From NCBI RefSeq assembly GCF_002104515.1, contig NZ_NBOE01000005.1, positions 124,001 through 188,000 on the forward strand: a DNA stretch of 64,000 nucleotides, read 5' to 3'. The notes beneath the pieces are model-generated. The model was not told the DNA's origin. It saw only the letters and a program-made list of their open reading frames with translations, and did not search any database. The DNA is from Colwellia polaris. GTDB taxonomy: Bacteria; Pseudomonadota; Gammaproteobacteria; Enterobacterales; Alteromonadaceae. Shown in pieces: positions 5,053-33,002 of this stretch. The position numbers were made by a program, and so were the translations under genes. Within the stretch, counting starts at the first letter, position 1. Each line of letters starts with the position of its first letter.

Positions 5053-5766
5053 TTAAGCTGCCTTGCTTTTTTTCTTATCTCTGATCCAAAATACCGAGCC
5101 GTTTGTTTTTTTCATTTCGAATAAATCGATTGCAGCAAATAAGTCACTTAACTTTTTGAAACCGAAGTTGCGTGGATCAAAGGAAGCATGGTTTGAAATA
5201 TGCGAACCGATAGTGCCTAACTGTGCCCAGCCTTCATCATCTTCAGATGCTTCTACTGCCTGGCGGAGCATATTCATTAACCTCGTATCACTTTTAATAC
5301 TTGGCTTTCGTTTTTGTACAGGTTTTTCTTCTGTTTCAATATCGTCTAAGTAAAGGAACTTAGAACAACTGTTTACGAAAGCTGATGGCGCTTTACGCTC
5401 ACCAAAGCCAATAACAAATTTGCCATCAGCTAATGCACGTGTAACAAGTGGAGTGAAATCACAATCTGAAGAAACAAGGCAGATAGTGTCAACATCTTTG
5501 GTGTAAAGAACATCCATAGCATCAATAACTAATGCTATGTCAGTAGCGTTTTTACCTTTGGTTAAATCAAATTGTTGAATAGGTTGAATTGCATATTCGT
5601 GAAGAACATCTTCCCAAGGCTTAATACAGGAGCTTTTCCAGTTACCGTAAGCTTTACGAATATTAACGACACCATAACGAGCTAGCTCTGAAAGTATAAT
5701 GTCTATTTTAGCTGCTGGCGCATTATCAGCATCAATAAATAATGCTATTTTTTCCTTATCTTTCAA
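5053..5766 (-). CDS. NYN-domain ribonuclease-like protein with OST-HTH/LOTUS domain
   Basis: The protein has 237 residues. The N-terminal ~145 residues form a NYN (PIN-like) domain, with acidic residues in ALFIDADN (8-15), KNATDIALVIDAMD (72-85) and VSSDCDF (98-104), the expected metal-binding positions of the LabA/DUF88 group. A charged linker (EEKPVQKRKPSIKSD) leads to a C-terminal OST-HTH/LOTUS-type domain (about 155-232), which binds RNA in other proteins. A role in RNA cleavage or turnover is likely, but the target is unknown. The start is TTG at 5766 with AAGGAA upstream; no in-frame ATG precedes the first strand. Confidence 0.8.
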   Translation of the reverse strand: MKDKEKIALFIDADNAPAAKIDIILSELARYGVVNIRKAYGNWKSSCIKPWEDVLHEYAIQPIQQFDLTKGKNATDIALVIDAMDVLYTKDVDTICLVSSDCDFTPLVTRALADGKFVIGFGERKAPSAFVNSCSKFLYLDDIETEEKPVQKRKPSIKSDTRLMNMLRQAVEASEDDEGWAQLGTIGSHISNHASFDPRNFGFKKLSDLFAAIDLFEMKKTNGSVFWIRDKKKSKAA

Positions 5767-5948: not shown

Positions 5949-6402
5949 TAACGATGAGATAACGATTTGAACTTAGGCATAGACTTAGCACTAGAAACCC
6001 TCTTCATATGCCTGAGATGCAAAAAGCCCGCTAATCTTTCGATTAACGGGCTCTTCTTAATATGGCGGTGAGATAGAGATTTGAACTCTACTCGAAGGTT
6101 TAGCGCTATAAACCCTTTTTAATAATTCTTGAAAAGCAAAAAGCCCGCTAATCTTTCGATTAACGGGCTCTTCTTAATGTGGCGGTGAGATAGAGATTTG
6201 AACTCTACTCGAAAGATTAGCGCTACAAACCCTTTTTATTCATTCCTGAAAAGCAAAAAGCCCGCTAATCTTTCAATTAACGGTTTTCTATAATATGGCG
6301 GTGAGATAGGGATTTGAACTCTACTCGAAGGTTTAGCGCTATAAACCCTTTTTATTAATTCTTGAAAAGCAAAAAGCCCGTAAATCTTTCGATTAACGGG
6401 CT
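5949..6402 (-). repeat. ladder of ~117-bp repeats: tRNA-Ser 3' end plus terminator hairpin
   Basis: Downstream of the tRNA-Ser gene, in its transcription direction, a unit of 116-118 bp recurs. Each unit holds a copy of the tRNA 3' part (T-arm, acceptor 3' strand, GCCA) with a longer, different variable-arm stretch, then an A/T spacer and a hairpin (AGCCCG...GAAA...CGGGCT) ending in a U-tract. tRNA-like pieces lie at 6296-6348, 6180-6232 and 6063-6115, with a decayed one near 5949-6000. Hairpins begin near 6371, 6255 (right arm damaged), 6138 and 6021. None has the 5' half of a tRNA. The arrangement recalls the rtT repeats behind E. coli tyrT. ORFs crossing this stretch are not real. Confidence 0.85.
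6375..6402 (-). terminator. first terminator behind tRNA-Ser
   Basis: On the minus strand a 12-bp stem (AGCCCG TTAATC paired with GATTTACGGGCT, one mismatch) closes a GAAA loop. It runs straight into five U residues, 12 bp after the tRNA CCA end. This is the first of four similar hairpins in the repeat ladder. Confidence 0.8.
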
Positions 6403-6413
6403 TTTCTATAATA

Positions 6414-6504
6414 TGGCGGTGAGATAGAGATTTGAACTCTAGAAGGGCTACAAACCCTTGCCGGTTTTCAAGACCGGTGCTTTCGACCACTCAGCCATCT
6501 CACC
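6414..6504 (-). tRNA. tRNA-Ser (anticodon TGA)
   Basis: This 91-nt cloverleaf starts GGTGAGA and ends TCTCACC-G-CCA, with the CCA encoded. The anticodon arm is CCGGT-CTTGAAA-ACCGG, with TGA as anticodon. A long variable arm (AAGGG...CCCTT) marks it as tRNA-Ser, and the T-arm is TAGAG-TTCAAAT-CTCTA. It reads UCA and related serine codons. Its 3' end is the source of the repeat ladder that follows. Confidence 0.95.
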
Positions 6505-6665: not shown

Positions 6666-7262
6666 GTGAGTAATAAAAATCTTTGTCGCTGTCCATGGTT
6701 AGATACTACAAAACCTGATTACGTTGACTATCATGATGAAGAATGGGGAGTGCCTGTTTATGATGATCAAAAAATATTTGAAAGCTTAACCCTTGAATCG
6801 GCGCAAGCGGGCCTAAGTTGGTACACCATATTAAAACGTCGTGAAGGCTATCGTGCAGCATTTGAAAATTTTGATGTCAATAAAGTTGCATTATTTAACG
6901 ATGAAAAAGTGGAAGCACTTGTAGTAAACCCAGAGATTATTCGGCACCGAGGTAAAATTAAAGCGGCTATTAATAATGCTAAGCTATTTATTGCAATACA
7001 AAATGAATTTGGTAGTTTTAGCAATTATATGTGGGGCTTTGTTAATCATAAGACAATTGTTAATCATTGGAGCAATATGGCTGACTACCCTGCCACCACG
7101 AAAGAATCAGACGCTTGGAGCAAAGATTTAAAAAAACGCGGTTTTAAATTTGTTGATTCTACAATTTGTTACGCACATATGCAAGCCTGTGGCATGGTAA
7201 ACGATCATAGTGTTGGTTGTTACAAACGCTCGCAAATAATCAATGAATTTGAGCAAGTTTAA
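6666..7262 (+). CDS. tag: DNA-3-methyladenine glycosylase I
   Basis: This 198-residue protein has the Tag signature throughout. RCPWLDTTKPDYVDYHDEEWGVP at the N-terminus contributes the first Cys/His zinc ligands (C9 and H23 by alignment with E. coli C4/H17). LESAQAGLSWYTILKRREGYR is the conserved helix-hairpin region, and HMQACGMVNDH...GC contributes the C-terminal ligands. The enzyme excises 3-methyladenine from alkylated DNA to start base excision repair. The start is GTG at 6666 with AAGGAA upstream; the ATG two bases earlier is closed at once by TGA. It stands alone after the tRNA. Confidence 0.95.
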   Translation: MSNKNLCRCPWLDTTKPDYVDYHDEEWGVPVYDDQKIFESLTLESAQAGLSWYTILKRREGYRAAFENFDVNKVALFNDEKVEALVVNPEIIRHRGKIKAAINNAKLFIAIQNEFGSFSNYMWGFVNHKTIVNHWSNMADYPATTKESDAWSKDLKKRGFKFVDSTICYAHMQACGMVNDHSVGCYKRSQIINEFEQV

Positions 7263-32442: not shown

Positions 32443-32588
32443 TATGATCTCATAAATTCGACTAGGAATACGTTATGGGATCCGGCATATGGGAAGATAG
32501 CTTAAGGTGTATAAACTGTATAATTAACAGATACCTCAAGCACAATTCGAGGCAACAAAAGTTAACATACAGAATGGTAATACGATGA

Positions 32589-32690
32589 GCTTAACCATTC
32601 CTACGCCGGTACTATCCGGTTCAGGTTCTAAGGGTTCGCTTCGCATCTCAGCCATTAAAATCGTTAAATTTATCAGGCACCCCTTGGTTC
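32589..32690 (-). promoter_or_regulatory. TPP riboswitch (THI element)
   Basis: On the minus strand, upstream of the TonB receptor, the conserved TPP-aptamer pieces occur in order: AGGGGTGCC (P1/P2 side), GGCTGAGATG, ACCCTTAGAACCTGA, and CCGGATAGTACCGGCGTAGGAA. The CUGAGA and ACCUGA cores that grip the pyrimidine and the GCGUAGGA segment that grips the pyrophosphate are exact. It should shut down the downstream cluster when TPP is plentiful. About 146 nt separate it from the receptor ATG. A CCTC...GAGG hairpin (near 32540-32560) could be part of the expression platform, but no clear U-tract is seen. Confidence 0.93.
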
Positions 32691-33002
32691 GGTATGCATA
32701 CTAACAATTTTTACTGGAAAGTACAGAGTAAAAACTTTAAAAGCTACAATTAACTCAGCTTGCTGCCTCTATTGAGTTAAATGATGCTAGCGCACTCACA
32801 TCTTACAATAGTCGCTTAAATGCCTTAGCAATATTGAGGTTTTATAGATTGATTCGGGTTAACTATGAAGAACAATAGTGAGGAAAAACGAAGGGAAATA
32901 ACGAGTAATACTACAGCAACTGTTTTGTCTCGCCTGAATATACACTCACCTCTGAGCATAAAAAATAACACAGAGGTGAAAATATAAATTAGATTTTAAT
33001 CA

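Follow-up and report, generated by a model that had tools for sequence, protein, structure and literature searches.

Why should a tRNA gene be followed by a row of copies of its own 3' end, each of them placed behind a terminator? The question is raised by the tRNA-Ser(TGA) gene in the window, the 64,000-nucleotide stretch of Colwellia polaris DNA analysed here, which heads a ladder of four such units. Comparison of this ladder with its relatives suggests, with a probability that we put at about 0.58, that tRNA-Ser(TGA) is a hot spot of integration, that the units are duplicates of the attachment site and relics of insertions, and that the ladder has grown by duplication and exchange.

The ladder and its surroundings

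ARAGORN and Rfam agree on a single tRNA-Ser(TGA) gene in the window, and the four units U1-U4 follow it (Table 1). The initial annotation had described three clear copies and one decayed copy of the tRNA 3' portion behind this gene, each joined to a strong hairpin with a GAAA loop and sharing a variable-arm sequence unlike that of the functional gene, and our analysis confirms this description, with steps of 114-118 bp, a stem and T-run in all four units and a shared variable arm that is clear in U1-U3 and degenerate in U4. Repeat analysis recovered three copies of a 117-nt repeat, two of them 89% and 96% identical to the reference copy, and five copies of a 40-nt tRNA-end block, including the gene itself and a 63%-identical decayed copy. 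The order within a unit is CATT or TATT, hairpin and T-run, spacer, altered variable-arm segment, T-arm, 3' acceptor strand and CCA; read from the tRNA, terminators and 3' copies alternate, with the hairpin always coming first. The copies end in GCCA in U1-U3 and in GTTA in U4. The variable-arm region reads GCGCTAA..CTTCGAGTAG or a near-form of it in U1-U3 and is absent from the functional gene; the variable-arm segment is AGGGTTTATAGCGCTAAACCTTCGAGTAG in both U1 and U3.

Table 1. Coordinates of the ladder, its surroundings and the comparison loci (window positions unless a contig or locus is named)
Feature	Position	Strand	Basis or remark
Functional tRNA-Ser(TGA), ladder head	6414-6504	minus	ARAGORN; Rfam RF00005, 61 bits
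U1, 118 bp	6296-6413	minus	repeat analysis, fold
U1 terminator	6372-6405	minus	
U1 altered variable arm, T-arm, acceptor, CCA	6296-6349	minus	spacer between terminator and this part
U2, 116 bp	6180-6295	minus	repeat analysis, fold
U2 terminator, shortened stem	about 6256-6283	minus	
U2 tRNA 3' part	6180-6233	minus	
U3, 117 bp	6063-6179	minus	repeat analysis, fold
U3 terminator	6139-6172	minus	
U3 tRNA 3' part	6063-6116	minus	
U4, decayed, 114 bp	5949-6062	minus	repeat analysis, fold
U4 intact terminator	6022-6055	minus	
U4 degenerate tRNA 3' part	about 5952-6001	minus	ends GTTA
NYN + OST-HTH protein gene, downstream of ladder, same direction	5053-5766	minus	Pfam
Methyladenine glycosylase gene (tag-type), other side of tRNA	6666-7262	plus	Pfam
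Promoter-like TTCAAA-17-TATTAT	6408-6436; 6290-6318		
TPP riboswitch	32581-32694	minus	68.7 bits
Second tRNA-Ser(TGA) of the genome	G000:C24:51150-51240		
5S-associated hairpins	G000:C22:317801-317836; C7:112-147; C6:130131-130166; C2:368-403		
tRNA-Ser(GGA), copy of own 5' end	L010 about 932-953 (G000:C11)		by eye
Serine recombinase loci	L067:13645-15219; L063:539-2173; L198 (G112:C72:49303-50883)		
Far-joint tail, G016			REEWDEYGHWFYSIKLPLE
Far-joint tail, G003			REEWDEYEHWSYSINLPLK, behind stop
Far-joint tail, G012			RAEWQEFRHW.., behind stop
Far-joint tail, G010			PAEWDEYEY then stop
Cargo locus L117	G010:C106:80000-92700		
INS57 places	L030:1719-1785; L009 about 1348-1414; L016; L023; L046; L048; L051; also L176, L101, L174		

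With slightly shifted ends, U1-U4 fold with z scores of -3.2 to -5.7 relative to shuffled sequences. Direct folding gave 15-16 base pairs and a T-run in all four (a raw count, without shuffles), and every unit holds the G+C-rich hairpin with a GAAA-type loop, followed by a T-run, that marks an intrinsic-terminator array; a generic terminator scan listed the U2 hairpin alone (one found against 0.8 expected). Over the ladder region the tRNA is the sole Rfam family above its gathering score; a match of the sX4 sRNA family to the tRNA and first terminator, at 45.2 bits against a gathering score of 70, was taken as overlap with the tRNA and set aside. A TPP riboswitch lies elsewhere in the window. 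Promoter-like sequences are formed by the T-loop and unit start, and the three promoter-like sites found in the ladder region, against 2.0 expected, are at chance level. The 0.55-kb ladder consists of units only, and no island lies between the tRNA and a 3' fragment in the window. A gene near-identical to the NYN gene of the window also follows the ladder in G003 (L040, L063), as judged from sequence reading and not from a systematic synteny test.

Distribution of the unit and conservation within it

The initial annotation had proposed to look for the unit at other tRNA-Ser loci of related genomes and to compare copy numbers. In the genome of the window itself, the unit occurs at another locus and in a different copy number: the second tRNA-Ser(TGA) gene, 100% identical to the first, has one unit behind it. 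Upstream of the tRNA-Ser(GGA) gene of this genome, about 21 nt of that gene's 5' end are repeated. A DNA search with the unit gave matches in 16 of the 17 genomes of the genus, the missing genome being 66% complete. Thirty-nine loci were oriented, and 31 of these, from 16 genomes, hold a full tRNA-Ser(TGA) gene. Behind it stands a unit in 24 cases, a few of them degenerate units recognized by sequence reading and not by the strict pattern, the left end of a type-1 island in three, that of a type-2 island in two and other sequence in two, namely a terminator without a tRNA 3' copy (L047) and an unclassified sequence (L062). Copy number across the loci ranges from 0 to 6. Extraction gave 59 units, one of which was skipped, leaving 58 full units; 50 of the 58 were aligned, and 55 were counted, which leaves out G006x1_1, G007A_3 and G012B_4. 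Unit length is 114-128 bp, with two of the 55 at 138-139; on direct folding all 55 keep a T-run behind a stem of 8 bp or more, and 43 of them end in CCA, the other 12 ending otherwise.

Beyond the genus, 53 of 147 genomes of the family, six of them Colwellia, gave a match at E<=0.001, many of these matches being the terminator alone, a hairpin that is also found behind 5S rRNA genes. These 5S-associated hairpins of the window's genome, at the end of the gene or up to about 0.4 kb beyond it, match the unit hairpin in sequence (85% over query positions 1-40). With the unit model, a unit was found at 10 of 36 tRNA-Ser(TGA) loci of the wider family (L164, L170, L171, L173, L174, L176, L180, L189, L191 and L192, with scores below 20 bits at L164, L176 and L180), these loci having been hand-picked, one per genome, from 69 non-Colwellia genomes with a tRNA-Ser(TGA) match; some of the 36 genomes carry ladders at another locus (G019, for example), and the share per genome is higher than 10/36. 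With a unit detected at only 10 of the 36 sampled loci, this tRNA evidently does not in general depend on a ladder. The unit is common to several genera, even where the variable arm of the local tRNA has changed (G040, L076), and its exact pattern was found in a named genome collection in Colwellia sp. C1TZA3 (NZ_VOLS01000004) and in one Alteromonadaceae MAG. In a second family of this order, tRNA-Ser(TGA) genes are followed by parallel ladders of the same plan with another unit sequence (L193, L194 and L196 in G257; L195 in G356, which alternates two unit types). These four loci were fetched because the order-level model search gave several matches there; its overall tally (280 of 295 genomes), in which the matches have mainly tRNA-gene length, is uninformative on ladders. 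Another form of local amplification, a tandem of four, four and three full tRNA-Ser(TGA) genes, was seen at L161 (G028), L169 (G050) and L184 (G128), where no unit was detected.

Which parts of the unit have been kept? Among 62 unit 3' parts from 32 genomes, mean identity between genomes is 0.34-0.35 in the spacer, 0.74 in GCTAAACCT, 0.92 in GGGTTTGTAGC and 0.86 in the T-arm. These parts had been picked by similarity, and first units picked by position were therefore used as a control. Among the position-chosen units of Colwellia, GCTAAACCT keeps an identity of 0.68 between genomes (shuffled 0.28), and the spacer has 0.31 and 0.37 (shuffled 0.30 and 0.35); this control used 24 of 26 segments (G005B and G001A having no tRNA-like block), omitted five tRNAs with an island end directly behind them and was anchored on GGGTTTGTAGC, which inflates the identity of that block. 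GCTAAACCT is absent from the tRNA. The units also hold a conserved dyad, AGGGTTTRTAGCGCYAAACCT, also given as GGGTTTRTAGCGCYAAACC. The spacer is therefore saturated, whereas a segment foreign to the tRNA is kept. The initial annotation had named simple decaying duplication as the alternative, and such plain decay fits badly with a unit behind 24 of 31 Colwellia tRNAs and with GCTAAACCT at 0.68 beside a spacer at shuffled level. Since RNA pairing in the segment is often broken, constraint at the level of DNA, such as a putative binding site, would be the simpler reading of its conservation, and we regard the segment as a candidate binding site for a recombinase or a host protein. The idea that the copies are simple duplicates, made at this locus, of an older tRNA end had to be abandoned, as the unit-specific segment is common to loci, species and genera; the homogenisation put forward in the initial annotation was upheld by a spacer identity of 0.62-0.63 within genomes against 0.34-0.35 between them.

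A more general form of duplication deserves more weight, and we consider it a possible though unlikely account of the ladder. Slippage or unequal crossing-over would have copied the tRNA 3' end with its terminator, gene conversion would homogenise the copies, and the units would decay, with no function beyond termination; islands would enter the unit joints opportunistically, because the sequence resembles a tRNA end. Near-identical neighbouring units in G014 and G019, homogenisation within genomes, decayed last units and a copy number between 0 and 6 are all in its favour. However, it leaves poorly explained why a segment absent from the tRNA is conserved beside a randomised spacer, why several ladders alternate between unit types that differ in their terminators and that recur from species to species, and why the unit is found in several genera even with a changed local variable arm.

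Islands and recombinases at the joints

In relatives, the CCA is followed by three recurrent left ends: type 1 begins with CATTCTAAGGGCTGCAC.. and has repeated TTCCGAATA, type 2 with CATTGATA.. and continues into a hairpin and T-run, and type 3 with CATTTTATAGATAAACCTCTG... All three carry a hairpin and T-run, as do the unit starts. Within Colwellia, types 1 and 2 begin behind the CCA of either the tRNA or a unit, and type 3 only behind units. Type 1 stands directly behind the tRNA in three places and behind a unit in two (G002; a remnant in G003), type 2 in two and three (G004, G009, G012) and type 3 behind a unit in four (G002, G008, G010, G012), the type 2 of G009 and the type 3 of G012 having been assigned by eye where the classifier gave '?'. 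By eye, type 2 was also recognised in two genomes outside Colwellia, following the tRNA in G112 and a module in G042 (L165); type 3 was recognised after a unit in two others, G053 and G055 (L086, L095). DNA searches of 17 genomes with the left ends found type 1 in three genomes and type 2 in five, all at tRNA or unit joints but for a partial type-2 match in G011, about 4 kb behind the tRNA of that genome; they missed the diverged type 2 of G009 and the type-1 remnant of G003.

Several of these elements can be followed to their far ends. The G012 ladder is interrupted after unit 3 by an element with type-2 ends, whose right end, recognized by eye, stands 6.2 kb after the left one and precedes a degenerate unit; no recognisable recombinase was found among its listed ORFs of at least 110 aa (L072), nor among the listed ORFs of the type-1 stretch of G002 (L064). 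The G002 type-1 element ends on the right in a tRNA cut at the anticodon stem. Because this other end is a true truncated tRNA, the unit that stands before the element may have arrived after integration. Three more cut tRNAs, two in G006 and one in G013, carry the same TTCCGAATA repeats, as expected for crossover in the anticodon region, which is among the island crossover sites named in the Islander paper (PMC4383910). In G006, an element running from a type-1 left end to a degenerate tRNA-like right end encodes a tyrosine recombinase (PF00589) and a MobA-type relaxase. Islands at the same joint sequence were thus found in relatives only, and a recombinase gene inside the inserted element in some of them. 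Cargo in or near the hot-spot elements (L117 in G010, L063 in G003, L068 in G006) includes ResIII and EcoEI_R_C restriction subunits, a DUF4011 helicase/nuclease with DUF3800 and a MobA-type relaxase. A small insert of about 50 bp with two hairpins (CAGGTTTTTATTACATCC..CTTCATCCTTGAAGTTAA), here called INS57, lies between the acceptor CTC and CCGCCA of units; it was found in eight places in 5 of the 17 Colwellia genomes, all in or beside ladder units, with one more by pattern in L029, and it is present in other genera too.

Two type-2 islands, those of G003 and G016, carry genes for large serine recombinases (PF00239, PF07508 and PF13408), and a third such protein was found in G112, of genus g21; the G003 and G112 proteins are 33% and 31% identical, respectively, to that of G016. 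Their last two codons and the stop, W-R-stop in all three, are read from the strand opposite to TCACCGCCA at the 3' end of the tRNA-Ser gene; the C-terminal codons also form a hairpin which, seen from the tRNA strand, is the terminator-like one that follows the gene. At the far island joint, the reverse strand holds a similar open tail of about 18 aa (Table 1). From this arrangement, attP would seem to be located within the recombinase gene, and integration would exchange the C-terminal tail of the protein; by forming a terminator-like hairpin behind the tRNA, the C-terminal codons would let the element protect its own target. The genome of the window holds no relative of the type-2 recombinase at E<=1e-40, and the relatives among phages and plasmids (871 and 213 records) are all below 60% identity, with no named element matched. 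The conserved GGGTTTGTAGCGCTAAACCT segment is about 30 nt from the serine-recombinase joint, and because of this distance the serine recombinase is not its obvious explanation.

We return to the reading of the ladder as spare attachment sites and relics of insertion. On this reading, the site at which an island joins the tRNA would recur at each joint (T-arm, acceptor, CCGCCA, then CATT or TATT and the beginning of a terminator), and recombinases would act on the unit joints. An island arriving at the tRNA or at a unit would bring its own terminator-like hairpin behind the CCA, and the tRNA would keep a stop signal. Ladders of terminator, spacer and tRNA 3' end would then arise as islands come and go, as sequence is duplicated in tandem and as the two tRNA-Ser(TGA) loci exchange material, and such an island history would also have produced the island-free ladder of the window. 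A trace of exchange may be present in G001, where a ladder with the upstream flank of locus B leads into the sequence found behind the window's locus-A ladder (L022, G001:C29, compared by eye with L062, G001:C11); such a flank swap is expected if two tRNA-Ser(TGA) loci recombine, and those of G001 seem to have done so. The genus-wide spread of the unit, the islands at the joints, their recombinases, the conserved GCTAAACCT and the stems kept in 55 of 55 units all count for this reading; against it count the ladder of the window, with neither an island nor a recombinase gene, the elements in which none of the listed ORFs is a recombinase (G002 L064, G012 L072) and the near-identical neighbours in G014 and G019, which slippage alone explains. 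Also against it are the lack of a type-2 recombinase relative at E<=1e-40 in this genome, the truncated tRNA at the other end of the G002 type-1 element, the distance of GGGTTTGTAGCGCTAAACCT from the serine-recombinase joint and the low share of sampled family loci with a detected unit.

A special case of the same reading is that the units themselves are gene-less mini-cassettes of about 0.12 kb, moved in trans by tRNA-targeting recombinases, with CATT and the terminator as the left end and the conserved dyad AGGGTTTRTAGCGCYAAACCT and the tRNA 3' end as the right end. If true, the ladder would be a tRNA-anchored cassette array of integron-like form, in which shared unit types are exchanged between loci and between species. 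Six loci were inspected for full-size elements whose right end is that of a unit lacking a terminator before it, and none was convincing, which counts against this special case, and we hold it to be improbable.

Terminators and RNA structure

RNAalifold, applied to 50 Colwellia units, predicted the terminator as the sole structure. Pair changes were counted on a structure named by hand, in 50 aligned Colwellia units and with 500 shuffles. In the terminator, 94% of cells are paired and 6 of 11 pairs have changed on both sides, contributing 61 of the 75 cells so changed. In the variable-arm hairpin, 82% of cells are paired, 3 of 8 pairs have changed on both sides (4 cells) and pair 94-107 is broken in 20 of the 50 units; the T-stem is 93% paired, with such changes in one of five pairs (10 cells). 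Over the whole structure, the 75 both-side-changed cells exceed all 500 shuffles (mean 32.6), the number of both-side-changed pairs is weakly raised (10 against 7.5; 23 of 500 shuffles reach 10), and the number of pair types is not raised (29 against 28.0; 189 of 500). The check for compensatory changes that had been suggested thus placed most of them in the terminator hairpin and few in the tRNA-like part, and an RNA fold kept by compensatory changes was rejected as the main reading.

Among pattern-matching units, the only ones counted in this comparison, the T-stem tends to match that of the tRNA in its own genome: a GGG/CCC tRNA goes with units that have GGG/CCC (4) or GGG/CTC (4), and a GAG/CTC tRNA with units that have GAG/CTC (14) or GAG/CCC (1). 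The G/A position of the variable arm is linked more loosely, with A in 16 of 17 units where the tRNA has A and G in 25 of 37 where it has G. In L076, of genus g25, the T-stem of the unit has changed on both sides while the local tRNA keeps GAG/CTC, which speaks for the stem, or for a DNA dyad.

The persistence of the terminator raises the idea that serial terminators provide fail-safe termination, shielding a downstream gene on the same strand (the NYN gene in the window) from a strong tRNA promoter, with the tRNA 3' pieces as passengers. The stem and T-run in all 55 units examined, the concentration of both-side changes in the terminator (61 of 75 cells) and the hairpin and T-run of the type-1, -2 and -3 left ends agree with it, but the conserved tRNA 3' parts and unit-specific segment would be left unexplained, as would the 26 of 36 sampled loci of relatives at which no unit was detected; as an account of the whole ladder, we find it decidedly doubtful. 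Least probable, and in our judgement very much so, is the role in RNA that the initial annotation had envisaged, in which read-through CCA-ended T-arm fragments or terminator hairpins serve as decoys, processing sites or small RNAs: the paired T-stem with its one pair changed on both sides in 10 sequences, the both-side change in L076 and the annotation of RttR and tpr in the rtT of E. coli K-12 lend it something, but a terminator stands ahead of every copy, 12 of 55 units have no CCA end, the variable-arm pair 94-107 is unpaired in 20 of 50, the Colwellia T-stem tends to follow the tRNA of its own genome, and, against shuffles, the number of both-side-changed pairs is only weakly raised and that of pair types is not.

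Comparison with known systems

Repeated integration at one tRNA gene leaves partial tRNA copies in tycheposons and other tRNA-anchored stacks. Compared with tycheposons as generally described, the Colwellia units are far smaller, and they succeed one another regularly, each with its own terminator. That integration can leave partial tRNA genes behind is well established (PMC9897764), and the arrangement of full tRNA, element and tRNA 3' fragment, as in the type-1 element of G002, is that of the islands treated in the Islander paper, which also resolves tandem island arrays at one tRNA (PMC4383910). Unlike those islands, the units are gene-less and, at about 0.12 kb, fall below the 2-kb filter stated there (PMC4383910); they would be candidate integration relics that are too short for an island finder discarding intervals of less than 2 kb. 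The type-2 elements differ further in using serine recombinases, whereas that 2014 paper gives tyrosine integrases as the only ones then known to target tDNAs (PMC4383910). We found nothing on such ladders among the papers listed by a literature search that covered few subscription journals and is correspondingly weak evidence of novelty. As far as our searches show, three features are new: a regular ladder without genes that has a terminator at every step and extends across a family, islands that use its joints, and a conserved unit-specific segment.

The resemblance to E. coli rtT that was noted at the outset is real in form: the K-12 sequence has the same array design behind tyrV, with three 178-bp units that each end in AATCCTTCCCCCACCACCA, the 19-nt 3' end of the tRNA, the first two being followed by TCACTTTCAAAAG, as is the tRNA itself, and with one more such 3' end between tyrT and tyrV. 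An rtT family is present in Rfam, yet none of the 33 matches up to E=10 in the ladder region was to a family of that name, and no sequence homology between the Colwellia unit and rtT was apparent by eye. In both, units stand in tandem immediately after a functional tRNA gene, and each closes with the 3' end of that tRNA and CCA (decayed in U4). The Colwellia units differ in being 114-128 bp long and not 178, in having about 50 tRNA-like nucleotides and not 19, in a hairpin and T-run per unit, in the tRNA concerned and in the altered variable arm. A decoy or small-RNA role has been proposed for rtT, which is annotated in E. coli K-12 with the small RNA RttR and the small protein gene tpr, and to our knowledge rtT has so far been regarded as a peculiarity of a single locus in E. 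coli. An rtT-like design is now seen in several genera of one marine family and, outside that family, in two genomes of another. In the Colwellia ladder, unlike in rtT, the joints are occupied by islands in relatives, and the reading of its units as spare attachment sites would link rtT-like repeats to the accumulation of islands at tRNA genes.
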